Counted from the stretch's first letter, positions 4,456-33,066 are shown. The stretch: 64,000 nt of DNA from Kiloniellaceae bacterium (GCA_021776115.1 JAJFGN010000041.1:1-64000); one strand, 5' to 3'. The notes: generated by a model from the sequence alone, not told the origin. Numbers and translations: made by a program.

Positions 4456-5130
4456 CTAGCAGGGGCGGATCGACAATACAGGCGCGGCCCAGTCGAGCCG
4501 AACATCCTCAATCGGCGGTGCGTTCCAGCTCGACAGGACGAAATGATTGGCGCGGTAACCGCGGCGCAACTCCTTGACCAGTATGGGCCCCTCGTCCGCC
4601 ACCTTAACAATGCACAAGCGGTTCAGGCAGTCGTCCGACACGCCGTGGTCTTCGCGCCGGTAGAATAGCAGCCAGCCGTCGCGCATCGGGTGCATCGAAT
4701 CGCCGCGCACGCGCATCGCCACGATGGACGCCTCGCCGACGCCCTCGGGGGCGCTAACCTCTTCTAAACCGCCACCTAAGGCGTGGTCGTCGTAGGAAAA
4801 GACCTCTTGTCCGGCGCCGACATAGCCAACCACCGCGACCGTCTCGGCGGGCCGGGTCGAGCCGTGCTCGTCGGTTTCGACGGCGGCCTCGCCATAGCGG
4901 AATTGGGCCGGGTGAACTTCCGCCAGTTCGGCCATGCGGCGAATGTGAGGGTCGTCCGGAATCGCGCCGCTTTCCCAACGCGATACGTTCGATTGGTCGA
5001 CCCCCACCAGCTCGGCGAGCGCGGCCTGCGACAGCCCGAGCGCGCGGCGCAGCGCGCGAATTCGCGCGGCCAATTCCAGGTCTCTTCTCGCGGTTCTGGC
5101 CGCGCGTGAGTCGCTATGCATGGCCCGCAT
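4456..5130 (-). CDS. XRE-family repressor with S24 LexA-like autoprotease domain (phage CI type)
   Basis: The 224-residue repressor has an N-terminal HTH_3 domain (~31-55, GLSQAALAELVGVDQSNVSRW) and a C-terminal S24 peptidase domain. The catalytic Ser is in RGDSMHP (~145) and the Lys in VKELRRG (~186); an Ala-Gly in YVGAGQEVF (~106-107) fits a self-cleavage site. It probably holds the phage-like genes silent until RecA-stimulated cleavage after DNA damage. It is divergent from the DnaA-like gene with candidate operators between them. The start is uncertain: TTG 5151, ATG 5130 or ATG 5121. Confidence 0.9.
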   Translation of the reverse strand: MRAMHSDSRAARTARRDLELAARIRALRRALGLSQAALAELVGVDQSNVSRWESGAIPDDPHIRRMAELAEVHPAQFRYGEAAVETDEHGSTRPAETVAVVGYVGAGQEVFSYDDHALGGGLEEVSAPEGVGEASIVAMRVRGDSMHPMRDGWLLFYRREDHGVSDDCLNRLCIVKVADEGPILVKELRRGYRANHFVLSSWNAPPIEDVRLDWAAPVLSIRPC

Positions 5131-5214: not shown

Positions 5215-5907
5215 ATGGCAAAAATCGCAAGTCAAACCGGATCGGGTGCGGGCAGGGAGCGGACCGAGGCTCCCGGCTCGCCGTCAGGCCCGCACCGCCG
5301 GACCCCGGTGCGCGGACAGATTGAGACCATGTGGCAAGGCGGCATGTCCACGACGGCGATCCGGCGCGCCCTGGGCCTGACCGCCGACGAGGCCCTTGCC
5401 GCCGGTATTTTCGCGCCTGCGGCGGTTGGCGGTCGGTGCGGCCCGGCGCGGCAGAGCAGGGGCGGCAGGGCAAGACCGCCCCGCGACCGGCGGCCGAAAG
5501 GGACGGGCGAAACCGATCCCGGCGGCGGCGCGGCGCGCGATACCGCGCAATCCTCGCAGGCGCAATCCTCGCAGGCGGGGCCGGCCATGATCGGTGTCTT
5601 GAACGCGGTGGCGCAGGTGTCCAAGGTCCCGGCGGCCCGCTTGCTTGGGTCCGGGCAAGAGCGCCGCCAGGTCCGGCCCCGGCACTTGGCGATGTACTTG
5701 CTGCGCGAGCTGTGCGCGGGCGCGTCCTTGCCCGCGATCGGCCATTTCCTGGGGCGCGACCATACGACGGTGCTTTACGGGTGCCGCCGGGCCGAGGACT
5801 TGCTCGCGCGCGACGCCGGCTTCCGCTCTTGGCGCGACGGCGCGCTTTATCTTCTTAAGAAAGACCCCGACGGCGGCTCGCCCGCGCAACGGCCGGTCCT
5901 GCAGTGA
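5215..5907 (+). CDS. DnaA domain IV-like DNA-binding protein, probable phage replication initiator
   Basis: About 230 residues. The first ~120 are low-complexity, Gly/Arg/Pro-rich and include a possible small HTH (TTAIRRALGLTADEALAAGIF). Residues ~134-195 resemble the DnaA origin-binding domain: VSKVPAARLLG, then RPRHLAMYLLREL, then SLPAIGHFLGRDHTTVLYG, the last matching the DnaA signature rDHTTVlhg. There is no AAA+ ATPase domain, so it may bind DnaA-box-like sites and recruit host factors. It is expressed away from the repressor under candidate operators. ATG 5197 and 5206 are alternative starts, but both lie inside operator O2. Confidence 0.72.
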   Translation: MAKIASQTGSGAGRERTEAPGSPSGPHRRTPVRGQIETMWQGGMSTTAIRRALGLTADEALAAGIFAPAAVGGRCGPARQSRGGRARPPRDRRPKGTGETDPGGGAARDTAQSSQAQSSQAGPAMIGVLNAVAQVSKVPAARLLGSGQERRQVRPRHLAMYLLRELCAGASLPAIGHFLGRDHTTVLYGCRRAEDLLARDAGFRSWRDGALYLLKKDPDGGSPAQRPVLQ

Positions 5908-6416
5908 CCAAGCGCCGGGACAGGCCCTCGCTCCCCCGGCGCCCCGCGCCGCGTGAGGGCAGCGGCGCCGACACCGGACCGCCCGAGCGCTACCGCCACG
6001 GCGACATCATCCAAAGCGAGCCGGGCGACGAGGCCGGGGTCCAGTTTCGCCGGGTCATGACCCAAAGCGTCTTGGACCGCCATCTGGCGCGGGACCAAAT
6101 CAGCCAGCGCGAGTTCGATGCCGGCCTGAAGCTGTACCGCCTGTGGCGCGCCTCGGGGGCAAGCCCGCGCGTGATCGCGAGTTATGCGCAACGGGTTCAA
6201 GGCGCGCGCGACATCACCGACCGTCAGGCGGTCCTGCGCAGCGGCGTCACCGCGGTGCTGCGCCGGATGGGGCCCTTGTCCGGCATCCTGGTTCATGTCT
6301 GCCTGTGCGACGAGGCCGCGCGCGATTGGGCCAAGGCGCGCGGCCACGCGCCGCAGAGCGGTGTCGTCGTGTTACGCCTGGCGCTCGACGCGCTGGCCGA
6401 TCATTGGCGGCTTTAG
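5904..6416 (+). CDS. Uncharacterised protein following the DnaA-like gene
   Basis: The 170-residue protein starts at a GTG overlapping the previous stop (GTGA), so the two are co-translated. The first ~30 residues are Arg/Pro-rich and disordered-looking; the rest is helical with a segment (FDAGLKLYRLWRASG) reminiscent of the DUF6456 region seen in alphaproteobacterial replication or regulatory proteins. I cannot assign it firmly. Its position suggests an accessory replication or early regulatory role. Confidence 0.55.
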   Translation: MTKRRDRPSLPRRPAPREGSGADTGPPERYRHGDIIQSEPGDEAGVQFRRVMTQSVLDRHLARDQISQREFDAGLKLYRLWRASGASPRVIASYAQRVQGARDITDRQAVLRSGVTAVLRRMGPLSGILVHVCLCDEAARDWAKARGHAPQSGVVVLRLALDALADHWRL

Positions 6417-16072: not shown

Positions 16073-16528
16073 ATGACCATGCATGACCTAAACAGCAACC
16101 TTGCTCCATTTCAGGCCCTTCCGGCGCAGACGATCAATCAGGGAACCGGTGCGCTGGTATCCGGAAATGTCGATCTGGCCGGCTTCAACGCGGCGCAGAT
16201 CGTCGTCCATTTCGGCACGATCGTCGAAATGGGTGCCTCGCCAACCGGTGCGGCGCAGATCGCCGTCAGACTCGAACACGCCGATGACAACGGCAGCGGC
16301 GCCCCAGGCGCCTACGCTAACGTGACCGACGCGGATGTAACCGGCGTAAGCGGCGTCGCCGCCGGCCTTGTCGCGAGCCCAAGCAGCGATCTTGTACCGG
16401 CCACCGTCGGTTACGTCGGAGACAAGCGATTCATTCGCGCAACCCTGACTCCGACGGGCCTGACAAGCGGCGGACCGGTGGGCGTAATCGTCAACCGGGG
16501 GCACCCTCGGCACGCCCCGGTGTCTTGA
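16073..16528 (+). CDS. Phage structural protein of unknown role (possible head decoration)
   Basis: The 151-residue, beta-rich, low-Cys protein starts 13 bases after the capsid stop behind GGAGGG. Its sequence (NQGTGALVSGNVDLAGFNAAQIVVHFG; DKRFIRATLTPTG) has the pattern of small phage capsid-associated beta-sandwich proteins. By position it could decorate or stabilise the shell, but I recognise no named family. The next gene has a similar composition and pattern (VDLGNPGPFALSLEAKLDG). Confidence 0.6.
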   Translation: MTMHDLNSNLAPFQALPAQTINQGTGALVSGNVDLAGFNAAQIVVHFGTIVEMGASPTGAAQIAVRLEHADDNGSGAPGAYANVTDADVTGVSGVAAGLVASPSSDLVPATVGYVGDKRFIRATLTPTGLTSGGPVGVIVNRGHPRHAPVS

Positions 16529-16633
16529 ACGTTGTCTATCCACTGACCTCCCTGTACCTGCGGCGGGGCTTGGTATTAGGCCCCGCCGACTCTTTCCGGC
16601 GCACAGGCATGAACAGAATCTTGGAGCCCGGCC

Positions 16634-17041
16634 ATGGCTGAGGATATCCGACAAAATTTCGGCATCGACACCGCTGTCACGATCACGCTCGACAACCTGG
16701 CCAACGGGTCTAGCGCAACGTCCAGCGCGGTGGACCTGGGCAACCCCGGGCCTTTTGCCTTGAGCCTGGAAGCGAAACTCGATGGCTCGGCGGCAGGCAA
16801 CACCGGCAATGTCGATATCTATGCGCAGTGGTCGAACGAAAACACCGATTTTTCCGATCCGCTTAACGATCTGCTGATTGGCACAGTGACCATGAATGGC
16901 ACTACCGCGGTCATCAAGGTTTTCGCCGCGCCGGTCCACGCCCGTTACGTGATCATTCGGGCCGAGAATAATTCGGGTGCGGCCCTGGCCGCGACGGGCA
17001 ACGCCCTGCGTTATGTGCCGGTGAGTGTGGATCAAGTCTAG
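16634..17041 (+). CDS. Small phage structural protein of unknown role
   Basis: The 135-residue protein of beta-strand pattern (TAVTITLDNLANGSSATSSAVDLG; GNVDIYAQWSNENTDF; VHARYVIIRAENNSG) looks like a jelly-roll or Ig-like virion accessory. Its stop codon shares the G of the GTG start of the LamG gene, so the two are co-translated. Function unknown; a decoration or fibre-attachment protein is likely from context. Confidence 0.58.
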   Translation: MAEDIRQNFGIDTAVTITLDNLANGSSATSSAVDLGNPGPFALSLEAKLDGSAAGNTGNVDIYAQWSNENTDFSDPLNDLLIGTVTMNGTTAVIKVFAAPVHARYVIIRAENNSGAALAATGNALRYVPVSVDQV

Positions 17042-18474
17042 TGCGCCTGGACCCTACGCACTTCCGCCAAGCGGTCGGTAACAAGGCGCCGCGCTGGCCC
17101 TTCGCGCTCGACCGCGCCAGTCCTCTGGCGCGCGAGTTGGCGGCCACCTGGCCTCTGTTCGCCGGTCCCGGCGTGGGCCTTAAAGATCATTCGGGAAATG
17201 GCGCGCATCTCGTGTTGGGTGCGGGAACTTTGGAACCCTCCTGGGCCACCCGGCCTGGACTAGATGCACGGGCGCTGGATTTCGACGGCGGTGACGAGGT
17301 GCACGTCGCAGCTGGTGACGTGGCGGCGCTCGACATTACGGGCGATAGGATCACTTTATCGGCGTGGATTCGGCCGGACGACACCGGCAACGCCAACGGG
17401 CGCCGTATTGTTTCGAAGCGGACCGACTCTGGCGGGTCCGATGTCTACGCGTTGTTCACGATTACCCCAAGCGGCGGTGAAATTTGGTTCCGACTGCGCA
17501 TCGGTGGGGCCGATCGTAATCTTGTGTTCGCAACGGCGGTCACAACCGGCATCTGGCAGCATTGGGCAGGGACCTACGACGGCACCACCATGCGCCTTTA
17601 CCGGAACGGCGTCGAAGTCGCGAGCCAGCCGCAAACAGGCAATATCGCCAATTCGGCGCGAGCGGTTCACCTTGGCCACCGTGAAGGCGAAGCCCGGCAC
17701 TTCGACGGGGCTATTGCGAATGCTGCGATCTGGTCGCGTTGTCTGAGTGCAGCCGAGATTCGCGCGCTATATAATCCGAGCACGCGCTGGGATTTGTGGC
17801 GTGAGCTGGCGGTGCCGCGGATCTTTCCAGAGATTGCCGGCGGGGTCACCGCGCGCACGCGCAGCGCCTCACTTGCGGCGGCCTTGCAACGCCAAGTGAG
17901 TCTATCGGCCGTGGCCGACGCCGCCTTGCGCGCCGAGGCCGTCTTGACGGCGTTGGCCGATGCGGCATTGCAGCGGGTCGTTCCAAGAAGTGCCGGCCTC
18001 GACGCCGCTGCGAAGGCTATCAAGTCGGCCCAAGTCGATCTCGGCGCGGCCTTGAAGCGGTCCCTGGAAGCGACCGCTGCGCTCGACGCGAATTTGACCA
18101 GCCAGGGTCTGTCCCAGCGTGTTGCGGGAATCGATGGCGCAATTCAACGGCTCAACGCGCTAAGTGGCGCGCTTGAGGCGGCGCTGCGCGCGTCGATACA
18201 AGGTGCGGCCGAGTTAGATGCTTGGCTTGCACTGAACCTCTCGAGAACCGCCGGCCTCAATGCTGTGGCACGGCGCGGTTATCAGCTTTCCGGCACCGCA
18301 TTGCAGGGCATATTGCGCGCGACACCCGATCGTGCCGCCGCGCTGGACGCGGTCATCGGTCTGGTGATCGCCGCGGCCGCAAGCCGGACGCATAAGGTCG
18401 GCGCGCGCGGCCGCAACAGGGTTGCGGGCGGGCAGCGGCGAAGCGTGATTCCATCCGGTAGCAGGAGACACTGA
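17041..18474 (+). CDS. LamG/concanavalin-like domain protein with alanine-rich repeats, virion-associated
   Basis: The 477-residue protein starts at GTG overlapping the previous stop. Residues ~1-60 hold a short N-terminal region ending in HSGNGAHL. Residues ~60-240 form a LamG-like jelly roll (ITLSAWIRPDDTGN, WQHWAGTYDGTTMRLYRNGVEV, IANAAIWSRCLSAAEIRALYNP), a fold that binds sugars or surface glycans. Residues ~275-455 are about twelve degenerate 13-17-residue repeats with core xAxLDAxL. It may be a head fibre or adhesion protein. It lies between capsid and connector genes, an uncommon place for a carbohydrate-binding protein. Confidence 0.72.
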   Translation: MRLDPTHFRQAVGNKAPRWPFALDRASPLARELAATWPLFAGPGVGLKDHSGNGAHLVLGAGTLEPSWATRPGLDARALDFDGGDEVHVAAGDVAALDITGDRITLSAWIRPDDTGNANGRRIVSKRTDSGGSDVYALFTITPSGGEIWFRLRIGGADRNLVFATAVTTGIWQHWAGTYDGTTMRLYRNGVEVASQPQTGNIANSARAVHLGHREGEARHFDGAIANAAIWSRCLSAAEIRALYNPSTRWDLWRELAVPRIFPEIAGGVTARTRSASLAAALQRQVSLSAVADAALRAEAVLTALADAALQRVVPRSAGLDAAAKAIKSAQVDLGAALKRSLEATAALDANLTSQGLSQRVAGIDGAIQRLNALSGALEAALRASIQGAAELDAWLALNLSRTAGLNAVARRGYQLSGTALQGILRATPDRAAALDAVIGLVIAAAASRTHKVGARGRNRVAGGQRRSVIPSGSRRH

Positions 18475-18475
18475 T

Positions 18476-19027
18476 ATGGTCGCGAATGTCGTCATCAACG
18501 AACACAATGGCGCGGCGCCCGGCGCGAAAAGCGATAAGACCTCTGGTACGATCCGCTTCAAGAACGCCGACGACGCCAGCGTCGATCTGAACAATCCGCT
18601 CGTCGTCCCGGGCACCGGGCAGGAATACTCCTTCGAGAAATGGCTACGCCTGGAAATAGCTGGCGGCACCTTCACGCAGATCACCAACTTGCGTGCGTAC
18701 TCGGATGGCGCCAACGGCTTCGGCGCCGGCGTCAAGCTCTGGTACGCTGTGACCGGCGCTTATGTGCAGCCTGTCGTGCCGAGCGAGGCCACGGACCCAC
18801 CGCAATCGGTCGCCGCCGGGTCGCCGGTCGAAAACATGCTGGATTTCTTCCTGGCCACGCAAGGCAGTCCCATCGATCTGGACGGGATCAATACGGGGCC
18901 ATTTGTCGATGGGTCCCCGACCGAAGCGATCGGCGATTTCCTGGTTCTGGTTATGGAGGTCGAGCCGACAGCTAGCAATGGCGTTCTTGCGACGGAAACG
19001 CTGACTTTCGCATACGACGAGATATGA
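18476..19027 (+). CDS. Phage protein of unknown function
   Basis: The 183-residue, soluble, mixed alpha/beta protein (VANVVINEHNGAAPGAKSDK; TIRFKNADDASVDLNNPLVV) has a beta-sandwich-like hydrophobic pattern and no signal or membrane segment. It starts right after the LamG gene and its stop overlaps the next start (ATGA), so it is part of the late operon. Similar proteins occur in tailed phages of alphaproteobacteria near the connector genes; a virion-surface role is possible. Confidence 0.55.
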   Translation: MVANVVINEHNGAAPGAKSDKTSGTIRFKNADDASVDLNNPLVVPGTGQEYSFEKWLRLEIAGGTFTQITNLRAYSDGANGFGAGVKLWYAVTGAYVQPVVPSEATDPPQSVAAGSPVENMLDFFLATQGSPIDLDGINTGPFVDGSPTEAIGDFLVLVMEVEPTASNGVLATETLTFAYDEI

Positions 19028-19305
19028 CGCCTGTGGCCGACGGCGCGCAGACCTTGCCCGAGTTCTCCATCGTCGGCACGGACGGCGAAGAACAACATGC
19101 GACCAATGGCCGGGTTACCTTGACGCTCTACCCGGACGGACCTGGTGCGAAGCTACGAAAGCGTAACGCCATCAAGCATGCCTGCACGCCCTGGGCGCGC
19201 CGCGAACAATGGCTATATGGCGAGCTCGATGGCGTGCGCTGTTACGTGAAGGACGAGGGCGCACAGATCCATATCGTTGTAACCAAACAGGATCTCTATC
19301 CCTGA
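19024..19305 (+). CDS. Small phage protein of unknown function
   Basis: The 93-residue protein is coupled to its neighbours by ATGA overlap at the start and by a one-base overlap with the next start. It is a small beta-rich domain (GRVTLTLYPDG; HIVVTKQDLYP) with two Cys. No family recognised. Confidence 0.5.
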   Translation: MTPVADGAQTLPEFSIVGTDGEEQHATNGRVTLTLYPDGPGAKLRKRNAIKHACTPWARREQWLYGELDGVRCYVKDEGAQIHIVVTKQDLYP

Positions 19306-19589
19306 TGCCTTATCGTCTGATAGATCCCGATGAGACGCTCGACTACGCCTGCGACTGGGCCGAATTCCTGGCCGACGGCGGCAGTCCGAGCGACACAATT
19401 CAAACCAGTCTCTGGTCGGTCGATCCCAGCGGACCAAGTTTGTCAGGCGCGTCTGTCGCGGGCGCGGTGACGCGTGTTTTCTTGTCTGGCGCGCAAGCCG
19501 GTCAAGTTTATCGGCTGACCAACACCGCGACGACCGCCTTGGGACGAACCGCCGAGCGAAGTTGGACCCTGCGATGCGAGAACCGCTGA
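19305..19589 (+). CDS. Phage fibre-tail adaptor-like protein
   Basis: The 94-residue protein starts at an ATG overlapping the previous stop. Its plan, PYRLIDPDETLDYACDWAEFL ... SLWSVDP-GPSLS ... YRLTNTATTALGRTAERSWTLRCEN, matches the short Ig-like proteins annotated as phage fibre-tail adaptors or connectors in alphaproteobacterial prophages. They are thought to attach accessory fibres. It overlaps the connector gene that follows. Confidence 0.62.
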   Translation: MPYRLIDPDETLDYACDWAEFLADGGSPSDTIQTSLWSVDPSGPSLSGASVAGAVTRVFLSGAQAGQVYRLTNTATTALGRTAERSWTLRCENR

Positions 19590-20576: not shown

Positions 20577-20980
20577 TACGCCTGCGTGTAACGGCCAAAC
20601 GTGGAACCCGGCACCGGCTGTCGGTTCGCCAAGAGATCTTGGCGCGGGCGGTTATCGAAAGCGCGGAAGACCTGCGTGACACCGCGCGGGAGTTGGTCGG
20701 CGAAACGGGTGGGGCTTCGCGGCCCGGTGAGCCGCCGCGTGTGGATACCGGGCGCCTGCGCGACAGTATTTTCGCCCGCGCGCGCGCCGGCGGTCTTTCG
20801 GCGGAAGTCGGGACGGACCTGGACTACGGGGCCCAGTTGGAATTCGGTACCCAGCGGATGGCGGCACGGCCCTGGCTGCATCCGGCCTTCGCGGCCAGCA
20901 AAGCCCGGATCAGGGCGCGATTGATGAAGGCGGCCCGCGCCGCCTTGCGTGGCGGCGGCTCGTCCAGGAGCCACTCATGA
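20573..20980 (+). CDS. HK97 gp10-family tail completion protein
   Basis: The 135-residue protein of the HK97 gp10 / RcGTA gp8-like family carries VDTGRLRDSIFARARAGGLSAEVGTDLDYGAQLEFGTQRMAARPWLHPAF (~58-107); the YGAQLEFGT...RPWLHPAF pattern is the family hallmark. It joins tail to head. It starts at GTG overlapping the previous stop and ends with ATGA coupling to the next gene. Confidence 0.88.
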   Translation: MIRLRVTAKRGTRHRLSVRQEILARAVIESAEDLRDTARELVGETGGASRPGEPPRVDTGRLRDSIFARARAGGLSAEVGTDLDYGAQLEFGTQRMAARPWLHPAFAASKARIRARLMKAARAALRGGGSSRSHS

Positions 20981-21390
20981 GCGCCGATTCGCAATGGGCC
21001 CTGCAAAGCGCGATCTTCGCCACCCTAAGCGCGGACGCCGGCGTTAAATCCCTGATCGGAGATCCGGCCCGCATCTTCGATCACGTTCCGCCCGAAAGCG
21101 TCTTTCCTTACGTGGTCATCGGTGAAGCAAGCTCGGGTCCCTTCGACGCGAAGACCCAAGACGGCATGGAGCAGACCCTGACGCTTCACGCCTGGTCTCG
21201 GTACCGGGGCTTGAAGGAAATAAAGGACATCATGGCCGCGGTCGCGAACGCCTTGGACCAACAAGCGCTGAACCTGGCCGGGCACACCCTCATACTTTTG
21301 CATTTTGAGTTCGGCACGACGTTTCTCGATAGCGACGGTCTGACCCGTCACGGCGTCCAGCGTTTCCGGGCCATCACCCAAGCTCCCTGA
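20977..21390 (+). CDS. DUF3168 tail terminator/completion protein
   Basis: The 137-residue protein (ALQSAIFATLSADAGVKSLIG, then RIFDHVPPESVFPYVVIGEASSGPFD, then TLTLHAWSRYRGLKEIKDIMAAVANAL) is the clear DUF3168 plan, which caps the tail tube. In RcGTA-type clusters the next gene should be the tail tube protein; here four sugar/methylation genes intervene. ATGA overlap with the preceding gene. Confidence 0.9.
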   Translation: MSADSQWALQSAIFATLSADAGVKSLIGDPARIFDHVPPESVFPYVVIGEASSGPFDAKTQDGMEQTLTLHAWSRYRGLKEIKDIMAAVANALDQQALNLAGHTLILLHFEFGTTFLDSDGLTRHGVQRFRAITQAP

Positions 21391-21394
21391 AGCA

Positions 21395-22021
21395 ATGGCC
21401 TGGTCCGTACCGCGCCTCTGGCCGGGGGAGACCTTCGCGTGCCTTGGCGGCGGGCCGAGCCTGACGGCAGCACAGGTTGCCGCGCTGCGCGGGAAGACGC
21501 GAGCCATCGCGGTCAACGATGCCTGGCGCTTGGCGCCCTGGGCCGATGTGCTCTACGCCTGCGACGGGCGGTGGTGGCGTAAGCACGGCGGCGTCCCCGT
21601 TTTCAAAAACCTGAAGGTCACCCTGTCCAACAGCGCCGATCAGGTTGGCGATTGGCCGGACATCGAGATTCTGGATAACACGGGGACCGAGGGTTTGGAG
21701 CGCGATCCGCGCGGTCTGCGCACCGGGCGCAACGGCGGCTATCAGGCGATCAACCTGGCGGTCCATCTGGGCGCCCGGCGCATTCTGCTGCTCGGCTACG
21801 ACATGAAACCGGCCGCCGATGGGCGCACGCACTGGTTCGGCGATCACGAGGATTGGCCGACCCGGCCCAACTTGTTTGGCGATGTCTTTTTGCCCCACTT
21901 CGAGGGTTTAGCTGATGCCTTGGATGAGATCGGCGTTGCCGTCGTCAACTGTACGCCCGGCAGCGCCCTGGAAGTCTTTCCAAAGGCGTCCCTCGAACAG
22001 GCGCTCGCCGACGGCCTATAG
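21395..22021 (+). CDS. Glycosyltransferase-like protein (DUF115/sialyltransferase-like), cassette gene 1
   Basis: The 208-residue protein has an N-terminal glycine loop (FACLGGGPSLTAAQVAALRGK) and a VNDAWRLAPWADVLYACD segment, as in phage-borne DUF115 and GT42-like proteins that handle CMP- or nucleotide-activated sugars. RTGRNGGYQAINLAVHLGARRILLLGYDM gives a second Rossmann unit. It likely adds or prepares a sugar for virion or surface decoration. It opens a four-gene cassette between tail-completion and tail-tube genes. Confidence 0.65.
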   Translation: MAWSVPRLWPGETFACLGGGPSLTAAQVAALRGKTRAIAVNDAWRLAPWADVLYACDGRWWRKHGGVPVFKNLKVTLSNSADQVGDWPDIEILDNTGTEGLERDPRGLRTGRNGGYQAINLAVHLGARRILLLGYDMKPAADGRTHWFGDHEDWPTRPNLFGDVFLPHFEGLADALDEIGVAVVNCTPGSALEVFPKASLEQALADGL

Positions 22022-22025
22022 CCTG

Positions 22026-22802
22026 TTGCCGACCCGCTTCGTGGACGGCCGCCACGAAACCATCCTGCGCGGCCTCCAACGGGCCGGGTGGCGTGTCGCC
22101 GAGGGGGCGGGTCCTCCACGCGACCGTCGTGATCTGCTGGTCACCTGGACCGTTCATCGCGGCGCGAAGGAAGACGCTGCGCGCGCCTTCGAGGCCGCCG
22201 GCGGTCAGGTCGTGGTGTGCGAGGAGGCCTATCTGCGCCGCATTAAGGGCGAGACCGCCTTCGCCATCGCGTTACACGATCACAACGGCGCGGGCCGTTG
22301 GCGCACCGGGGGTCCGGAGCGCTGGACCTCGTTCGGCATACCGCTGCAGCCGTGGCGCCGTGCTGGGTCGCATATTCTGGTCGCCGAACAACGCGGGATC
22401 GGCAGTCGCCGCATGGCCAGTCCGCCACTCTGGCACGACGATGTCGCGGCTAGGCTCAAGCGTGTGTCGAGGCGGCCCATCTTGTTCCGGGCACATCCTA
22501 AAAGCCGCCTCTATCCCAAACTGGCGCAGATCCAAGGATCGCTCGAGGGCGCCTTGGCCGGCGCGCACGCGCTTGTCACCTGGGCCGGCAGCGTCGCGGT
22601 ACGAGCCCTTATTCAGGGCGTGCCGGTCTATTTCGAAGCGCCCGAACTCATTTGCGGCGGCGCCTGCGCGCGCGGCGTCGAAGGTATCGAGACGCCGGCC
22701 TACCCGGACCGCCTGCCGGCCCTCGAGCGCCTGGCCTGGGCGCAATGGCGTGTCAGTGAGATCGAGGCCGGGGCGCCGTTCCGATGGCTGATGGCCGCAT
22801 GA
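22026..22802 (+). CDS. Capsular-polysaccharide-type glycosyltransferase-like protein, cassette gene 2
   Basis: About 258 residues with no good ATG: the frame opens upstream only in the shadow of the previous gene, and TTG 22026 is the most plausible start. The C-terminal half has FRAHPKSRLYPK and ALVTWAGSVAVRALIQGVPVYFEAPE, the pattern of KpsC/KpsS and related sugar-nucleotide transferases (a hydroxyl/Ser-Val followed by Gly-x-Pro-Val). The N-terminal half is a Rossmann-like unit. The donor and acceptor are unknown. It is coupled to the next gene by ATGA overlap at 22799-22802. Confidence 0.55.
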   Translation: MPTRFVDGRHETILRGLQRAGWRVAEGAGPPRDRRDLLVTWTVHRGAKEDAARAFEAAGGQVVVCEEAYLRRIKGETAFAIALHDHNGAGRWRTGGPERWTSFGIPLQPWRRAGSHILVAEQRGIGSRRMASPPLWHDDVAARLKRVSRRPILFRAHPKSRLYPKLAQIQGSLEGALAGAHALVTWAGSVAVRALIQGVPVYFEAPELICGGACARGVEGIETPAYPDRLPALERLAWAQWRVSEIEAGAPFRWLMAA

Positions 22803-23314
22803 GCGAAGGTTCCCTGATCGGGCAGTACCGGCTCATGCACGCGCGCGGTGCGGTCTTTCCGGGCCGGTCCCTACTGCGGGTCGCTTGGCACGTTTACGAT
22901 GCCGTGCAGCGTCACTCGGCGCTGACGCTGCTCGATTACGGCTGCGGCCAAGGCCAGCAATACGACCGCTACAAGGTTCATGAGTGGTGGGGGGTGCCGC
23001 GCCCGGCGCTCTACGATCCGGCGGTGCCGCGCTATGCCGCGCGCCCTCAGGGGTCCTTCGATGGCGTGATCTGTAGCGACGTTCTGGAACACGTGCCCCG
23101 CGACGAGTTGGACGGCGTGCTGACCGAGTGTTTCGGCTACGCCAAAAAATTCGTGTTTTTCTCGATTTGTTGCCGTCCTGCCCGCAAGTCGCTGCCAAAT
23201 GGCCTGAATTGTCACGTTACCCTTGAAAAGCCGGAGTGGTGGAACCGCCGTATTCAGGAATTCAAGGCGGCGCGGCGGCATGACGTGGCGCTCCACACGG
23301 TCTTCTCACCCTGA
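22799..23314 (+). CDS. Class I methyltransferase-like protein, cassette gene 3
   Basis: The 171-residue protein has motif I LLDYGCGQGQQYDRYKVH (~44-61) and the post-I region GVICSDVLEHVPRDEL (~88-103), as in SAM methyltransferases (DUF/type 11). It may methylate sugar or another cassette product. It is translationally coupled to the preceding gene. It is shorter than a usual methyltransferase at its C-terminus. Confidence 0.68.
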   Translation: MSEGSLIGQYRLMHARGAVFPGRSLLRVAWHVYDAVQRHSALTLLDYGCGQGQQYDRYKVHEWWGVPRPALYDPAVPRYAARPQGSFDGVICSDVLEHVPRDELDGVLTECFGYAKKFVFFSICCRPARKSLPNGLNCHVTLEKPEWWNRRIQEFKAARRHDVALHTVFSP

Positions 23315-23345
23315 AGTATCCGACTCAGCGGAGAACGGATGATCC

Positions 23346-24050
23346 ATGGCTCCTATCAGAATCTACATCGGTTGGGATCAACGCGACATCGCCGCGTTCG
23401 AGGTCTGCCGCCGCTCCCTGCTGCATCATGCCAGCGTGCCGGTCGAGATCGTGGCGCTCAAGGATTGGGAGCTGCGCGCCAAAGGCCTCTACTGGCGGCC
23501 CTATTCAGTCGACGAGCGCGGTCAGATGTGGGACGGGCGCGACGGGCGGCCCTTCTCGACCAATTTCAGCTACACGCGCTTCTGTATTCCGCTCCTAGAG
23601 GAATTCGGCAGTGAGTTGGTCGTTTTTTGCGACGCGGACATGCTGTGGCGCGCGGATGTCGCGGACCTGATCGAGGTGGCGGGGGAGGCCGCCGTTGCTT
23701 GTGTGAAACACGAGCATCGCCCGCATGAGCGCGACAAGATGGCCGGCCTGATCCAAACCGTTTATCCGCGCAAGAACTGGTCCAGCTTGATGGCTCTGCG
23801 TCCTGGGCGTTGCGCCGGTCTGACGCCCTATGCGGTCAACAACCGCACTGGCGCTTGGCTGCACGGCCTGCATTGGATCGACGACGCGTCGATCAAGGGC
23901 TTGCCGGAGTCCTGGAACTGGTTGGAGGGGTGGTCCGACCCGGCGATCGAGGCCAAGGTCGTCCACTTCACACGCGGCACACCGGATATGGCCGGATGCG
24001 AATCGGCGGCCTATGCCGCGGAGTGGCGGGCCGTCGCGGCGAGCGCATAA
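23346..24050 (+). CDS. Glycosyltransferase (GT-A, family 8-like), cassette gene 4
   Basis: The 234-residue protein begins PIRIYIGWDQRDIAAFEVCRRSLLHHA, then FSTNFSYTRFCIPLLEEF, then the metal-binding DxD in VVFCDADMLW (~96-98). This is the GT-A fold of glycogenin/LPS-type hexosyltransferases using a nucleotide sugar. The late motif VVHFTRGTPDM (~213-223) matches the family's C-terminal donor-site His. It closes the cassette before the tail-tube gene. Confidence 0.8.
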   Translation: MAPIRIYIGWDQRDIAAFEVCRRSLLHHASVPVEIVALKDWELRAKGLYWRPYSVDERGQMWDGRDGRPFSTNFSYTRFCIPLLEEFGSELVVFCDADMLWRADVADLIEVAGEAAVACVKHEHRPHERDKMAGLIQTVYPRKNWSSLMALRPGRCAGLTPYAVNNRTGAWLHGLHWIDDASIKGLPESWNWLEGWSDPAIEAKVVHFTRGTPDMAGCESAAYAAEWRAVAASA

Positions 24051-24132
24051 CCCGCGCAACCGCAACCGCCAGGCAGGCGGCAATTCCTGGGCCAGGTAGG
24101 CCCATCGTTTTATCATCGGGAGGAACCGAACA

Positions 24133-24549
24133 GTGGCGGCACAAAAAGGTAAACTCGTTCTCTTGAAGGCGGACCTGACGGGGGCCTCGCCCCAGGTCTT
24201 CACCACACTGGCGGGTCTTCGCACCACGACCTGGACTATCAACGGCGAAGACGTCGAGGTCACGACGAAGGACGACAACGGTTGGCAGCAGCGCTTGGCG
24301 GGCGCCGGGGTCCGCTCGCTCAGCGTGTCGGCGGGCGGCATCTTTCAAGACACCGCGGGCGAGGAGACCGTGCGCCAGTGGGCCTTCGATCAGAGCATCA
24401 ACTTGTTCGAGATCACCTTCGAGAACGGCGACCGCTTGGAATGCCGGTTCCAGATCTCGAACTACGAGCGCACCGGGGACCACGATGGGGCGGAGACCTA
24501 CTCGCTCAGCCTCAACTCCCACGGCACGCCGACTTACGTGGCGGTCTGA
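24133..24549 (+). CDS. Major tail (tube) protein
   Basis: The 138-residue tail-tube protein of the phi13/RcGTA gp9 family starts at GTG. MAAQKGKLVLLKADLTG, VEVTTKDDNGWQQRLAGAGVRSLSVSAGGIF (~47-77), FEITFENGDRLECRFQISNYERTGDHDGAETYSLSLNSHG (~96-135) fit well. It stacks in hexamers around the tape measure. It restarts the RcGTA order after the glycan cassette. Confidence 0.92.
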   Translation: MAAQKGKLVLLKADLTGASPQVFTTLAGLRTTTWTINGEDVEVTTKDDNGWQQRLAGAGVRSLSVSAGGIFQDTAGEETVRQWAFDQSINLFEITFENGDRLECRFQISNYERTGDHDGAETYSLSLNSHGTPTYVAV

Positions 24550-25123: not shown

Positions 25124-25756
25124 AGGCGCGACGGCGCCGCGCGGGATCTGGGGTTTACCTTCGCGTCTTCCTTCGAGGACGCGGTGGTCGAGGGGCGGCG
25201 CTTGTCCGATGTGTTGCAGGGTCTGGAGCAGGACATCCTGCGCATCCTAACCCGCAAGCTCGTGACCGAACCCTTGGCCGGTGCGGCCACGAGCCTGATC
25301 GGGACCGGTGTTGGCGCACTAGCGGGGCAGTTTCACGGCGGCGGCCGGGTTGGTTCGACGGCGGTTTCGGGCCGTGTGGTGCCGGCCTCGCTCTTCGACG
25401 GGGCGCCGCGTTTCGCCGGCGGCGGCATGATCGGGCGGGTGCCGAGTCTGGCGCCGGGCGAGGTGCCGGCGATTCTGCATCGCGGTGAGATCGTGCACAC
25501 CCCGGCCCAGGAAGCCGCGTTGCGGCGCAACGCCGGCGGCTCCGGCGATACGCGGATCGTGGTGAACATTCAGACGCCTGATCCGCAGCAGCCCAAGATC
25601 AAATTGACGCGCGCATTCTCCAACATACCATTTCCAAGTTACCAAGCCTTCGTAATGTTCATGAAATTCGTGTACAGGGTTGCCTTCCAACCGTCAGGAA
25701 ACGATACAGAAATCTGGCACACTGATTCGGGAAGCGTCGCGTCACGCTCGATAACG
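25120..25756 (+). pseudogene. Truncated tape-measure remnant (copy A of a duplicated C-terminal region)
   Basis: ATG 25120 overlaps the chaperone stop as expected for a tape-measure start, but its frame is lost within nine bases: the following tape-measure-like sequence (from 25129) is in another frame. From 25129 to 25586 the DNA matches 27068-27525 without indels at ~93% identity by eye; the encoded part includes EDAVVEGRRLSDVLQGLEQDILRILTRKLV and AGAATSLIGTGVGALAG. After 25586 it runs into unrelated sequence and stops at 25757. The N-terminal body of the original gene is missing, so this copy is probably non-functional, although GTG 25184 could start a 191-residue product. Confidence 0.75.
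25129..25586 (+). repeat. Direct repeat copy A (458 bp, tape-measure C-terminal region)
   Basis: Indel-free direct repeat of 27068-27525, offset 1939 bases, with about 33 differences in 458, mostly at third codon positions. Both ends are sharp: it begins at CGACGGCGCC and ends at GATCCGC. The divergence suggests recombination with a related element rather than a recent tandem copy. Confidence 0.85.
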
Positions 25757-26061
25757 TAGGAAAACAAACTCGGGTAGAGGTCCAGAACGGAGGCGTCACA
25801 GCGAACGGCGCGAACCCAAAGCGAGCTGGGCGCCCTTACAAGACAGCCAAGTCTTTCTATTTCACTCGAGTCAAAGCGTTTGTGAGCAGCCGTCGCCGGA
25901 TTGACCGCTGTTGGCGTGGTGCACGTTGGCCAAGCATTGAGGAGCTTTCCAGCCTCCGCATTACGGCCAAAAGCGATCGTCAACAGCAGAAATAACAATA
26001 AGCAACGTATCTCGCCATACACAGCATTTCCACCATAGAAAGCCGACAAGCTCTTCGGCAA
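25639..26061 (-). CDS. Hypothetical secreted protein within the tape-measure insertion
   Basis: The 140-residue frame on the opposite strand is in lower-GC DNA than its surroundings. Residues ~20-37 (CLLLFLLLTIAFGRNAEA) look like a signal peptide if translation starts a little downstream of the first codon. Three Cys occur in the mature part. No family recognised, and codon use is unlike the flanks, so it may be a moron carried in by the recombination that rearranged this locus, or not a gene at all. Confidence 0.38.
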   Translation of the reverse strand: MPKSLSAFYGGNAVYGEIRCLLLFLLLTIAFGRNAEAGKLLNAWPTCTTPTAVNPATAAHKRFDSSEIERLGCLVRAPSSLWVRAVRCDASVLDLYPSLFSYVIERDATLPESVCQISVSFPDGWKATLYTNFMNITKAW

Positions 26062-26216: not shown

Positions 26217-27602
26217 ATGGCGAACGAAGGATTGAGTTTCGACATCACTGCTGATCTCAGACCTCTGGAGACCGCGCTTAAGAAAGCGGAGCAGTCAATC
26301 GGCGGTCTTACGAGTAAGCTGGAAAAGGGCTTCAGTTTGTTCGATGCGCGCATCGGAGTTCTGAAAAAAGGCTTGGTGGCATTGGACGCGCAAGCGCGAA
26401 AGTCAGGAGAACTTCTAAGCGCATCGTTTGAAGTCCTTGGCTCAATTTCAGGTATTCCTCTGCTTGGCAGGTTTGGCGAAGAGATCGAAAAGCTTTCCGG
26501 CGATACGAGGCAGCTCGAAGCAAACTTCAAAAGATTATTCGCGATGAAGCCCGGTGCCCTTCTGTCCGAGATTGGAGACTTGGAAACTCAAATCCAAATA
26601 ATCGGCGCGGCGGTGGAAGCCGGGATACCCGCCAGAGCGATTTCCGACGATGTGCGCTTGCTGAAAGAGGAGCGAAAGCAGGTTTTTGATGCGCTAGTTG
26701 AACAAGCCTCCGAACCGTTTAATAAGCTCGAGAACTTAGCCAGTTTTGACGGCGCGATACCGGACACGTTTCAGGCGCGGAAACTGGCAGAGCGCCTCGA
26801 AGAGTTCCGAGGTATTTTCCAGGAAATCAGATCGATAACCGATGATCCGGGCGTTAGAACGAGGATCGACATGCTGCCATTCTTTGAGGGACCCCGCCAA
26901 CGTGAACGGGGCGCATTGGAGCCGCGCTCGCCCAGGGACATTCAACTGGCCACGTTCGAAGCCACAGAAGGCGTGAACACCCTGGCGGCGGCCCAGAGCA
27001 TGTTGACAGATGCCGTCGAGCGGAGCGGCCGGTCGCTCGAAGAACAGACCGGCACTATCCGCAACCTCGACGGCGCCGCGCGGGATTTGGGTTTTACCTT
27101 TGCCTCTTCCTTCGAGGACGCGGTGGTGGAGGGGCGGCGTTTGTCCGACGTCTTGCAGGGTTTGGAGCAGGACATTCTGCGTATCCTGACCCGCAAGCTC
27201 GTGACCGAACCCTTGGCTGGCGCGGCCACGAGCCTGATCGGGACCGGTGTTGGCGCGCTGGCCGGGCGGTTTCACGGCGGCGGCCGGGTTGGATCGACGG
27301 CGGTTTCGAGCCGTGTGGTGCCGGCCTCGCTCTTCGCCGGGGCGCCGCGTTTCGCCGGTGGCGGCATGGTTGGGCGGGTGCCGAGTTTGGCGCCGGGCGA
27401 GGTGCCGGCGATTCTGCATCGCGGTGAGGTCGTGCGCACCCCCGCGCAAGAGGCCGCGCTGCGGCGCAACGCCGGCGGCTCCGGCGATACGCGGATCGTG
27501 GTGAACATTCAGACGCCCGATCCGCGCGCCTTCAATGAATCGCGCGGCCAGATTCAGGCCATGCTGGCCGACGCCGTGCGCGCCGGCCGCCGCAACCGTT
27601 AA
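26217..27602 (+). CDS. Tail tape-measure protein with an acquired N-terminal region
   Basis: The 461-residue protein has an N-terminal ~280 residues that are helical and of lower GC and different codon use (ITADLRPLETALKKAEQSIGGLTSKLEKGFSLFDARI; KKGLVALDAQARKSG) than the C-terminal ~180 residues (FASSFEDAVVEGRRLSDVLQGLEQDILRILTRK ... GGGRVGSTAVSSRVVP ... ILHRGEVVRTPAQEAALRRNAGGSG), which is the RcGTA-type tape-measure end. The C-terminal part is copy B of the 458-bp repeat. This sets tail length. It is probably the functional tape measure because it is followed in frame and order by the DUF2460 gene. Confidence 0.8.
   Translation: MANEGLSFDITADLRPLETALKKAEQSIGGLTSKLEKGFSLFDARIGVLKKGLVALDAQARKSGELLSASFEVLGSISGIPLLGRFGEEIEKLSGDTRQLEANFKRLFAMKPGALLSEIGDLETQIQIIGAAVEAGIPARAISDDVRLLKEERKQVFDALVEQASEPFNKLENLASFDGAIPDTFQARKLAERLEEFRGIFQEIRSITDDPGVRTRIDMLPFFEGPRQRERGALEPRSPRDIQLATFEATEGVNTLAAAQSMLTDAVERSGRSLEEQTGTIRNLDGAARDLGFTFASSFEDAVVEGRRLSDVLQGLEQDILRILTRKLVTEPLAGAATSLIGTGVGALAGRFHGGGRVGSTAVSSRVVPASLFAGAPRFAGGGMVGRVPSLAPGEVPAILHRGEVVRTPAQEAALRRNAGGSGDTRIVVNIQTPDPRAFNESRGQIQAMLADAVRAGRRNR
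27068..27525 (+). repeat. Direct repeat copy B (458 bp, functional tape-measure end)
   Basis: Partner of 25129-25586. It is in frame with the intact tape-measure gene and continues into its normal C-terminus (RAFNESRGQIQAMLADAV), whereas copy A continues into unrelated sequence. Confidence 0.85.
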
Positions 27603-29742: not shown

Positions 29743-32700
29743 ATGGCGACTTTAGCTTTCAGCCTTGGTGGCGCCCTGGCGGGTGGTTTGGTCGGCGGTC
29801 CGGTTGGCGCTCAGGCCGGCTTCCTGGCGGGGCAGTTCGCCGGGAACGCCGTGTTCGGCAACGCCGATGACCGGGTCATCGAAGGGCCGCGCCTGACCGA
29901 CCTGGCGGTCACGTCTTCGACCTACGGCCGGCCGATTCCGATCGCCTATGGCCGCTTTCGCCTCGGCGGCAATGTTGTCTGGTCGCCGGGTATTAAGGAG
30001 ATTCGCCAGGAACAGACGCAAGGCGGCAAGGGCGGCGGCGCGACGCAAACGAGCCTAACTTGCCGCTACACCGCCGACTTTCGCGTTGCCCTGTGCGAGG
30101 GGCCGCTCGACGCGGTCTTACGTGTTTGGGCCGATGGCAAGCTTATTGCCGACTTCACGACTACGGCGCCTGTATTCGGCGGTAAGATCCGTCGGGCCAA
30201 CATGCGGGTTTACCTGGGCGGCGACGCGCAGCAACCGGACCCGGCAGAGCAAGCCGATCGGGGCATCGAGGACACCCCCGCCTACCGGGGACAGGCCGGA
30301 CTTGTGTTTGAATCCTTGCCGTTGGAAGACTTCGGCAACCGTATCCCGCAGATCACGGCCGAGGTCGCGACCTCGGCTAGCGAGACCTTCCCGTTAGCCA
30401 GCACGACAGCCTTCGCCTCCCCGGTGACGCAACTCGCCCGCTGGAGTCATGACCGCCGCTTTCTCTATACGCTGTCGACGAATGGAATCGCGACCAAGTG
30501 GGATGTGGCCGAGCGCCGGCAGCTGGTCGGCAAGGATATCGGTGTCGGCGAGGCCTTCTGTCCCGGACTCGACCGCGACGGGAACCTGTATTCCGGCGAC
30601 CGGAACGGCAAGGTTATCAAGTACGACGGCTCCTGGACCCAGCTTGGAATTTCGCCGACGGCGATGGCCCAGGACTTTGCCAATCTTATCGTCGCCGGCC
30701 AGCCCGGATTCGAGCGTGTCGTCGCTCAGGGCATCACCGGTAGTGTCGGCGTGTTTTCCGCCACTACTCTGGACTTGCTGAACGAGATTACGCTTTCGGA
30801 TTTTGCCGTACCTACCGCTGGAACCTACCGGGCGACGCTGAACCGCAACGGCATGGCGGTCGACGCGGAGGGATTTGTCTGGACTCTCGTGGTCGACGGT
30901 TCGGCCGACGGTTATCTCTTCAAGATCGACCCCGGCATTGGATCGATACGTGAGCGCCATGTCTTGGCGGGAAAGACGGGGGCTCGCTTCCTGTCCTATG
31001 ACGAACCGACCAATAGTTTGATCGTTGAGGAAGACGGTGCGATCGGCCTGTTTCGCTTTGACCTCGATACCTCAACCATCGACGCGGTCTTGGCGGTGGG
31101 CCTGAACGCGACGGTCGATAACCGGACGCAGTATTGTGCCGGTCCGGTAGGTGGGCGGATCTGGCTGCAAGCGTCGACAATCGCCTTCGAGATCGATACC
31201 GCGAGCTTCACCGTTCTGCGCACCGTATCGCTCGCCAGTTGGACCCCGATTCCGGCCGTCGAGCAGATGGTATACGACGTGCTGAACAACGCGCTGATCT
31301 GGGTCGATGTCTTCCCGGCCACGCTGTACTGGACCTTTCTCGATCGCAAGAACGGCCTGAACGTCGGCCTCGGCGATATCCTTGACGACGTCTCAAGCCG
31401 GGTCGGCCTCAACTCGTCCGGTGATCTCGACGCTTCGGCGCTCAACGATACCGTGATCGGCTTTGTGATATCCGATCGTATGAGCGCGCGCGCCGCACTG
31501 GAACCTCTTGCGACCGCCTATTTCTTCGATGCGCGGGAAGAGGATTTCAAGGTTGTTATGGTCGCGCGCGGCGGCGCGCCGTCGGTCACAATTCCCGAGT
31601 CGGATCTCGGCGCGCGGGCCTTCGAAGACGCCGATTTCGTGCCTTTGCTCAGCGAGGAACGTATACAGGAAATTGAACTGCCCCGGCGTATCGACATGAC
31701 CTACGCCGACCCAAACCTCGACTATCAAACCAACACCCAGGTTTTTCAGCGTGTACAGGAAGCGGTGGCAACGCGGGGCTTGAAGGTCGTTCGCCTGCCT
31801 CTCGCCATGAGCGAGAACGAGGCCGCACAGCGGGCCGAGAGACTCGGGTTCCAAACCTGGCAGGCGCGTACGCCCTACAACTTGCGTGTTTCCCGAAAGC
31901 ATGCGCGGATCAGTACTGGCGACGTGATCCGCGCGACGGCCGATGGCGCCACGGCCACTCTGCGGGTCGATTCGCTCGACTACGGGGCCGACGGTGTCAT
32001 CCGTCTGCGCGGTGTGGCGGAAGATCCTGTAGTGTACGAAAGCGCCGCGGCCGGCGTCTCGGGTTTGGGTGTGCCGGCGCAGTCAATAGCTCTGGCCGGG
32101 CCTTCGGCATTCTACCTCATGGACATTCCGTTGTTGCGCGACGCGGAAGAGGGTTTGGGAATTTATGTTGCCGCCGGTGCGTTGGGCGAGGAAGCTTGGC
32201 CCGGCGCCTCGATCTTGAAGTCGGCCGATGGCGAAACCTTCGACGCGCCCTTCCTCTTCGTACCGGGCACGCGCAACGCGACTCATGGCGCCAGCGAGTC
32301 TGTGCTGTCCGATCATGGCGCCCGCACCTGGGATCGCACCAACACTCTGACCGTGCGTTTGTCGCGCGGCGCCTTGGTTTCAGCCAGCGAGACGGCCGTG
32401 TTGAACGGTGCAAATGCTCTGCTGGTCGGCGACGAAGTTATTCAGTTCGCCAACGCCAATCTAAACGCCGACGGGACCTACACCCTCGACACGCTACTGC
32501 GCGGCCGGCGCGGTACCGAATGGGCGACCGTCGGGCATGCGTTGGGCGAGAGGATCGTCTTGCTCAGCGAGGCGGCCTTGGATCGCGCCAATCTACCCGA
32601 TGCCGACCTCGGGGTCGCACGATTCTACAAGGGTGTGACCTTGGGTGGACCGGTTAGCGAGGGTATGCAGAAGTCGCTCACCTTCATTGGACGCTCTCTC

Positions 32701-33066
32701 ATGCCGTACGCCCCGGTCGATATTCGCGGCGTGCGGACCGGCTCGCCCAGCGACTGGACCATCGCTTGGAAGCGGCGCACACGCTTGGGCGGGGCATGGA
32801 AGGACGCGGTCGATGTGCCCCTTGGCGAAGAGAGCGAAGCCTACGAAGTCGATATCCTTAATGGGCAGACAGTCGTGCGCACCATCACCGCGGTGGCCTC
32901 CAGCGGCGGCTCGGTCGTTACGCCCAGCTCCCGCCAAGCTTTGTACTCGGCCGCCGACCAGACCACCGACTTCGGCGCGGAACAAGGAACCCTCAGCCTT
33001 CGCACTTATCAATTGAGCGCCACGGTCGGGCGCGGTTTTCCCGGATCAGCCATCGTTTCCGGATAG
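29743..33066 (+). CDS. RcGTA gp15-like megatron / host-specificity protein with a beta-propeller insert
   Basis: The 1107-residue tail-tip protein. Residues ~1-205 form the N-terminal region with a glycine-rich hydrophobic segment (LAFSLGGALAGGLVGGPVGAQAG) and the Phage-tail-type module RPIPIAYGRFRLGGNVVWSPG. Residues ~206-530 are beta-propeller-like blades (HDRRFLYTLSTNGIATKWDVAERR; DRDGNLYSGDRNGKVIKYDGSW; DAEGFVWTLVVDGSADGYLFKIDP). Residues ~535-770 resemble the phage_tail_3 domain and ~860-1107 the RcGTA gp15 C-terminal region. RcGTA gp15 is ~1300 residues with a TIM-barrel domain; here a propeller appears in that position. It probably recognises and enters the host. Confidence 0.87.
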   Translation: MATLAFSLGGALAGGLVGGPVGAQAGFLAGQFAGNAVFGNADDRVIEGPRLTDLAVTSSTYGRPIPIAYGRFRLGGNVVWSPGIKEIRQEQTQGGKGGGATQTSLTCRYTADFRVALCEGPLDAVLRVWADGKLIADFTTTAPVFGGKIRRANMRVYLGGDAQQPDPAEQADRGIEDTPAYRGQAGLVFESLPLEDFGNRIPQITAEVATSASETFPLASTTAFASPVTQLARWSHDRRFLYTLSTNGIATKWDVAERRQLVGKDIGVGEAFCPGLDRDGNLYSGDRNGKVIKYDGSWTQLGISPTAMAQDFANLIVAGQPGFERVVAQGITGSVGVFSATTLDLLNEITLSDFAVPTAGTYRATLNRNGMAVDAEGFVWTLVVDGSADGYLFKIDPGIGSIRERHVLAGKTGARFLSYDEPTNSLIVEEDGAIGLFRFDLDTSTIDAVLAVGLNATVDNRTQYCAGPVGGRIWLQASTIAFEIDTASFTVLRTVSLASWTPIPAVEQMVYDVLNNALIWVDVFPATLYWTFLDRKNGLNVGLGDILDDVSSRVGLNSSGDLDASALNDTVIGFVISDRMSARAALEPLATAYFFDAREEDFKVVMVARGGAPSVTIPESDLGARAFEDADFVPLLSEERIQEIELPRRIDMTYADPNLDYQTNTQVFQRVQEAVATRGLKVVRLPLAMSENEAAQRAERLGFQTWQARTPYNLRVSRKHARISTGDVIRATADGATATLRVDSLDYGADGVIRLRGVAEDPVVYESAAAGVSGLGVPAQSIALAGPSAFYLMDIPLLRDAEEGLGIYVAAGALGEEAWPGASILKSADGETFDAPFLFVPGTRNATHGASESVLSDHGARTWDRTNTLTVRLSRGALVSASETAVLNGANALLVGDEVIQFANANLNADGTYTLDTLLRGRRGTEWATVGHALGERIVLLSEAALDRANLPDADLGVARFYKGVTLGGPVSEGMQKSLTFIGRSLMPYAPVDIRGVRTGSPSDWTIAWKRRTRLGGAWKDAVDVPLGEESEAYEVDILNGQTVVRTITAVASSGGSVVTPSSRQALYSAADQTTDFGAEQGTLSLRTYQLSATVGRGFPGSAIVSG

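Follow-up and report, generated by a model that had tools for sequence, protein, structure and literature searches.

A stretch of 64,000 nucleotides from a Kiloniellaceae bacterium (GCA_021776115.1), referred to here as the window, contains four genes, A through D, that lie together on the + strand at 21395-24050 and fill the space between the tail terminator and tail tube genes of an RcGTA-like particle cluster. It is proposed, with a probability of roughly 0.6, that this cassette is resident in a gene transfer agent (GTA) and glycosylates a particle protein stepwise in the cytosol, with CMP-ulosonates as donors and a methyl group as cap. Glycosylated virions and RcGTA-like GTAs have each been described before; a literature search found no paper on this module, on a glycosylated GTA, or on the combination of the two.

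The genes are closely packed. The tail terminator (20977-21390, +; PF11367 E 6e-33, phrog_176) is followed after 4 bp by A (21395-22021, 208 aa), a GT42/DUF115-like glycosyltransferase predicted to be a CMP-ulosonate (sialyltransferase-like) user, and after another 4 bp by B (22026-22802, 258 aa), a beta-Kdo-transferase-like GT-B protein with a TTG start, whose homologs align from residue 1. C (22784-23314, 176 aa), a class I SAM methyltransferase, overlaps B by 19 bp; D (23346-24050, 234 aa), a GT-A glycosyltransferase, begins 31 bp after C and ends 82 bp before the tail tube gene (24133-24549, +; PF06199 E 2.4e-37). The terminator-to-tube distance is 2.7 kb. The ORF calls and the flanking profile matches thus agree with a sequence-only reading that had described four co-oriented genes between a tail-completion and a tail-tube gene, as do the gaps of 4-31 bp and the single overlap with its account of tight, partly overlapping spacing. 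The GC3 of the cassette (0.75-0.80) is the same as that of the neighboring genes, and its composition gives no sign of a foreign origin. A recent horizontal gain was considered and rejected, as GC3 matches the cluster and dS matches the host genes. In the gap between D and the tube gene, a pattern scan identified a terminator- or attenuator-like hairpin (24088-24104, +) that could split transcription. Similar GGCCAGGYAGGCC hairpins are present in L198, G003, and G005 and absent in G001. However, as a class such pattern matches are not above the shuffled expectation, and a terminator at this position was therefore not accepted. The same gap (24051-24132) contains hairpins of the types CCGCCAGGCAGGCGG and GGGCCAGGTAGGCCC, and G004 and G007 carry other short repeats there.

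The predicted products are consistent with glycan synthesis. A matches the PHROG profile phrog_4603 ('alpha-2,3-sialyltransferase') with an E of 5.7e-45. Its AlphaFold model, made with 67 homologs (pLDDT 96.5), has a sole PDB match with E<0.001, the GT42 sialyltransferase CstII (1ro8; E 1.7e-4, probability 1.00, TMq 0.54); various Rossmann-type enzymes and human sialyltransferases follow with weaker E-values. By this model, A has a CstII-type GT42 fold, although its sequence identity to CstII is 12%. The residues GPSL, N41, D136, and H146 are conserved. Thus, of the original label 'DUF115/sialyltransferase-like', the second part is borne out, whereas the match to PF01973 (DUF115/MptE-like), which is what A shares with Maf/DUF115 proteins, is weak: 17 bits, below the cut-off of 34.6, with a similarly weak match in 63 of the 67 homologs. 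Given this score and the CstII fold, assignment of A as an MptE pterin enzyme or a true Maf protein is not supported. B, which is 33% identical to Caulobacter phage proteins, has no match in the family profiles searched, but its model (pLDDT 95.1) matches the beta-Kdo transferases WbbB/KpsC/KrkA in all 28 of the PDB hits with E<=0.001. It appears to share its fold with the retaining beta-Kdo transferases WbbB (GT99) and KpsC (GT107) (E 2e-6 to 7e-4), while being shorter and only 10-14% identical to them; the modeled fold is that of a beta-Kdo transferase (GT99/GT107), and a catalytic role is predicted. The earlier description of B as KpsS-like was therefore near the mark in fold, that of the KpsC/WbbB class, but not in family: Capsule_synth (PF05159, KpsC/KpsS) does not match the window protein and gives weak matches for 2 of 36 homologs (best E 0.002). 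Searching the PDB by sequence with A and B was unproductive; the matches came from comparing folds. C and D hold the identities first given to them. C matches Methyltransf_23/11 and phrog_24759 (E 4.5e-20) and has the conserved motifs LDYGCGQG and DVLEH, and D matches phrog_28018 (E 8.1e-60), has an invariant DxD (D96 and D98), and in the PDB resembles WbbM (E 0.0017) and, weakly, glycogenin. A and B are thus two transferases whose folds are those of CMP-ulosonate-using enzymes. Four NeuB-family proteins and one true PF01973 protein are encoded in the host genome, and the NeuB-family genes make CMP-sialic acid or another CMP-ulosonate plausible as the predicted donor. Furthermore, no strongly hydrophobic, membrane-like segment was seen in A-D, which fits a cytosolic acceptor.

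The surrounding cluster (10955-34107, +) consists of particle genes only, in RcGTA order, in line with the RcGTA-like character that the sequence-only reading had given it. This order, which is kept in relatives, is based on matches to TIGR02217, TIGR02218, PF11836, PF23666, TIGR02215, and other families, in order; the matches to TIGR02216 and TIGR02219 fall under the curated cut-offs. TerL (10955), portal (12329), protease (14079), and MCP (14896) are followed by decoration genes (16079-19305), among them the LamG/ConA-like lectin particle protein that had been noted earlier (17041-18474, PF13385 E 1.2e-29), and then by connector (19574), adaptor (20226), gp10 (20573), and terminator (20977). 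Beyond the cassette lie tube (24133), GTA-gp10 (24552), TAC (24929), tape measure (25184 and 26217), g12 (27630), g13 (28235), g14 (29313), and g15 (29743), all on the + strand. Housekeeping genes flank the cluster. A - strand ORF at 16088-16504 is an artifact (pN/pS >1); the real gene lies at ~16079-16528 on the + strand. Several features of the cluster may be recorded. Between MCP and connector, the decoration genes include a match to Pfam Gp77 (a podophage fiber-tail adaptor; E 2e-21) at 19305-19589. The tape measure gene is apparently duplicated, in the window (25184-25759 and 26217-27602) and in L088 (13253-14542 and 15022-16422), the longer copy being preceded by a C-terminal fragment whose tail is unrelated, with a stretch of 53% GC between the two; G002 has a similar two-copy layout. 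The g15-like hub protein (29743-33066) contains Phage-tail_3 and Rcc01698_C domains, and its residues ~220-520 look propeller-like by eye.

RcGTA and CcGTA, the GTAs of Rhodobacter capsulatus and Caulobacter crescentus, share with the window the order TerL-portal-protease-MCP-connector-adaptor-terminator-tube-gp10-TAC-TMP-g12-g13-g14-g15, vertical inheritance, and an activator pair, one protein DnaA-like and the other with DUF6456, that has a regulator next to it (PMC9638019, PMC11150451). In the window, this pair consists of a DnaA-C-domain protein (5308-5907, +; PF08299 E 3.7e-18), which is GafY-like and corresponds to the N-terminal half of GafA, and a DUF6456 protein (5904-6416, +; PF20057 E 5.4e-11), which is GafZ-like and corresponds to the C-terminal half, these assignments being by domain rather than by alignment to GafA. 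A divergent XRE-S24-type regulator (4456-5130, -; HTH_31 E 1.5e-13, Peptidase_S24 1.9e-4) is in a RogA-like position. The overlapping pair has the arrangement of split gafA genes (PMC9638019), and together with the regulator it resembles the Caulobacter gafYZ operon and its repressor RogA (PMC11150451). The DUF6456 gene is the sole copy in the genome, and among 14 control genomes only that of Caulobacter vibrioides has one; within the family it is present in G001-G003, G005, and G007 and tracks the cluster in most members. Elsewhere in the order, another family has a DUF6456 gene and a tail tube homolog ~9 kb apart (G011:C26:41781 and 50519), which hints at a further GTA-like cluster. The window differs from RcGTA and CcGTA in having A-D between terminator and tube, LamG and decoration genes between MCP and connector, a g15 without a Pfam GTA TIM-barrel match, and a GafYZ-like pair ~4.5 kb upstream of TerL.

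The cluster has been retained across the family. In three congeners (G001-G003), it occupies the same chromosomal site, with bactofilin upstream or polyprenyl synthase and glyQS downstream as common host flanks, the comparison covering some of these flanks in each genome. It is found across four genera, and tail tube and D are present in seven of eight other family genomes, the exception being 59% complete; the relatives are those that carry the depositors' label Kiloniellaceae. Among the three congeners, the cassette genes are 78-89% identical (A being measured in two of the three), identities and dS agree among cassette, particle, and flanking host genes, and in a tree of A all family copies form one clade with 100/100 support. 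The cassette genes are under purifying selection, with a pN/pS of 0.13-0.27 that is similar to that of particle and housekeeping genes. In comparison, the LamG protein evolves fast (60-62% identity, pN/pS 0.40). It had been suggested that the homologs might prove to be unconnected host genes, or that the cassette might be absent from all relatives. Instead, the copies in the particle cluster are kept at one locus in the three congeners, and the position is occupied in every adequately sequenced family member, and the first explanation is rejected for the family copies, although D homologs elsewhere are often apart from the module. These selection values, the fixed site, and the family-wide presence indicate that the element is most likely a domesticated GTA passed on by vertical descent, which would be predicted to package host DNA. 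Four IMG/VR entries (L198, L199, L200, and L201) appear to be copies of this family's particle cluster filed as viral contigs, with 63-92% identity in most genes.

Comparison with other clusters shows that the position of the cassette is fixed and its content is variable. In L380, L381, and L382, three canonical RcGTA-like clusters of the same class that otherwise have the gene order of the window, terminator and tube are separated by 22, 109, and 45 bp with nothing between; the cassette that one might have looked for in other RcGTA-like clusters is thus missing from these, at gaps of 22-109 bp. A Desulfofustis phage whose TerL is related likewise has terminator and tube side by side. In contrast to the 2.7 kb of the window, sister genera have a larger gap, which contains A-B-B2-GT9-FkbM-D. 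The same series is found in another family of the order (L388, G021:C204), on a 9.7-kb contig with a D that is 56% identical. In L194 (G004:C204, 3250-4267), A and B are downstream of the tail tube and GT9-FkbM-D upstream, reflecting a rearrangement, a second copy, or a misassembly. On contigs L064, L214, and L292, the module immediately precedes the tail tube gene, and its placement in the window was therefore most likely already that of the phage ancestor. 'Inserted', the word first used for the cassette, is then less apt: phage contigs with related particle genes hold the module at the same spot, and neither a recent nor a unique insertion fits.

Nor is the set unique, as had been supposed: close counterparts occur in jumbo phages of Caulobacter, in Tetraselmis virus S20, and on dozens of phage contigs from the environment. 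The larger module, composed of A, B, B2, C, GT9, FkbM, and D, usually lies between capsid and tail genes. Many IMG/VR contigs carry it; 53 non-redundant contigs have at least three module types, and the neighbors of the 30 with at least four were scanned, two close relatives of the window element being left out. Upstream ORFs in these 30 belong to portal, major head, and head protease families and downstream ORFs to Neck1, Hc1, head-tail adaptor, major tail, and terminator families, counted per ORF rather than per contig. In Tetraselmis virus S20, the module is between capsid and connectors, and podovirus ctDrO704 has part of it. Among the Dolichocephalovirinae, CcrColossus (gp126-131) and CcrSC (gp516-512) have A, B, a B paralog, D, and C together at ~31-40% identity, directly after tail genes, and CcrColossus also has GT9. 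These differ from the window in being jumbo phages and in having two B copies, another order, and a position before the endolysin; the literature found does not describe a function for their module. In DLP_6 and Mosig, parts of the module are away from particle genes, and most D homologs in other alphaproteobacterial chromosomes have no other module or particle gene detected nearby. Single D homologs of this kind, ~39-45% identical, occur in Mesorhizobium, Phyllobacterium, Rhizobium, and others (L105-L115, L145-L167).

Taken together, these results have led to the following model. The cassette would reside in a domesticated RcGTA-like GTA, having come down from a phage ancestor. Activation of the particle operon, probably through the neighboring GafY/GafZ-like pair, would lead to the synthesis of A-D in the cytosol alongside the tail parts. 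A, B, and D would then assemble a short glycan on one of the particle proteins, drawing on sugar nucleotides made by the host, and C would methylate a sugar of that glycan, all of this before assembly and lysis. The released particle would bear a methyl-capped glycan that may affect its stability or its binding to recipient cells. Co-transcription, the donors, the order of the steps, the particle-protein acceptor, and the benefit are what we infer. A particle acceptor is favored over the envelope by the sizes of the gaps, by the recurrent capsid-tail location, and by a cassette that has neither membrane-like segments nor flippase or carrier genes, and the fact that many phages have related sugar-gene sets among their particle genes suggests that such particles, and those of the window element by extension, are coated with a built-to-order glycan. 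The LamG protein is a possible acceptor or ligand partner. A precedent exists in the mycobacteriophages, in which phage-encoded glycosyltransferases reportedly modify proteins of the capsid and the tail tube (Freeman 2023, cited in PMC10877033, PMC12619734). The window differs in its predicted CMP-ulosonate enzymes, its proteobacterial host, and its GTA.

Kdo- and sialyltransferase-like enzymes usually have envelope glycans as their targets, and an envelope acceptor for A and B is therefore possible. The cassette could in that case change the capsule or LPS of the producer late, either keeping particles from sticking to producers and debris or excluding other phages. The folds of A and B are those of envelope-glycan enzymes, peripheral Kdo transferases need no transmembrane segment to act at the inner membrane, and the RcGTA receptor is reported to be an extracellular polysaccharide (PMC10218006). 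However, the cassette lacks the flippase, polymerase, and lipid-carrier transferase of serotype-conversion operons, jumbo phages too carry the module beside tail genes, and exclusion would bring no gain to an element in which no propagation genes were recognized; a change in the producer envelope is accordingly judged unlikely. Of the two targets first entertained for the sugars, the particle thus remains the simplest reading of a glycan and methylation set packed with tail genes, and the host surface becomes the less likely one. A further idea, that the enzymes modify DNA or another target outside virion and envelope (hypermodified bases or small molecules), draws on the ability of phage glycosyltransferases to hypermodify DNA (Pyle 2024, cited in PMC12619734). 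It is very improbable, given that A and B have the folds of CMP-sialic acid and CMP-Kdo transferases rather than of DNA glycosyltransferases, that the module is located among capsid and tail genes, and that a GTA packaging host DNA would gain little.

It might also be argued that the cassette belongs to an ordinary prophage, recently acquired and common to the family. TerL is 54-55% identical to some phages and 46-54% to RcGTA-like clusters, a TerL tree of 14 rows does not separate placement in the RcGTA clade from placement with phages, and close relatives (L198-L200) are filed as viral contigs in IMG/VR. Yet three congeners have the element at the same site, its identity and dS equal those of the host genes around it, a GafYZ-like operon lies upstream, and the cluster spans four genera. 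In addition, no integrase, replication, or lysis cassette was recognized in the gene calls of the window or the family scans of the cluster. A prophage origin of this kind is consequently quite doubtful, and glycosylation of a particle protein by a resident GTA cassette is preferred. A broader version of that proposal can be offered more tentatively: an undescribed, widespread phage module may build methyl-capped glycans of the sialic/Kdo type on virion proteins in the cytosol, and its reduced copy in the GTA of one family would make this the first glycosylated GTA, with the glycan tuning delivery to kin.

A 2019 survey listed no RcGTA-like cluster in the five Kiloniellales genomes included (Kogay et al. 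2019, PMC6821227), and the window thus extends RcGTA-like elements to this lineage. The module could also yield new CMP-ulosonate protein glycosyltransferases, and since the same enzyme set is present in capsid-tail operons that include those of Caulobacter crescentus phages, virion glycosylation in Proteobacteria becomes directly testable. GTAs have been studied mostly as minimal head-tail particles. A GTA that keeps a glycan cassette under purifying selection would indicate that the chemistry of the particle matters for gene delivery.
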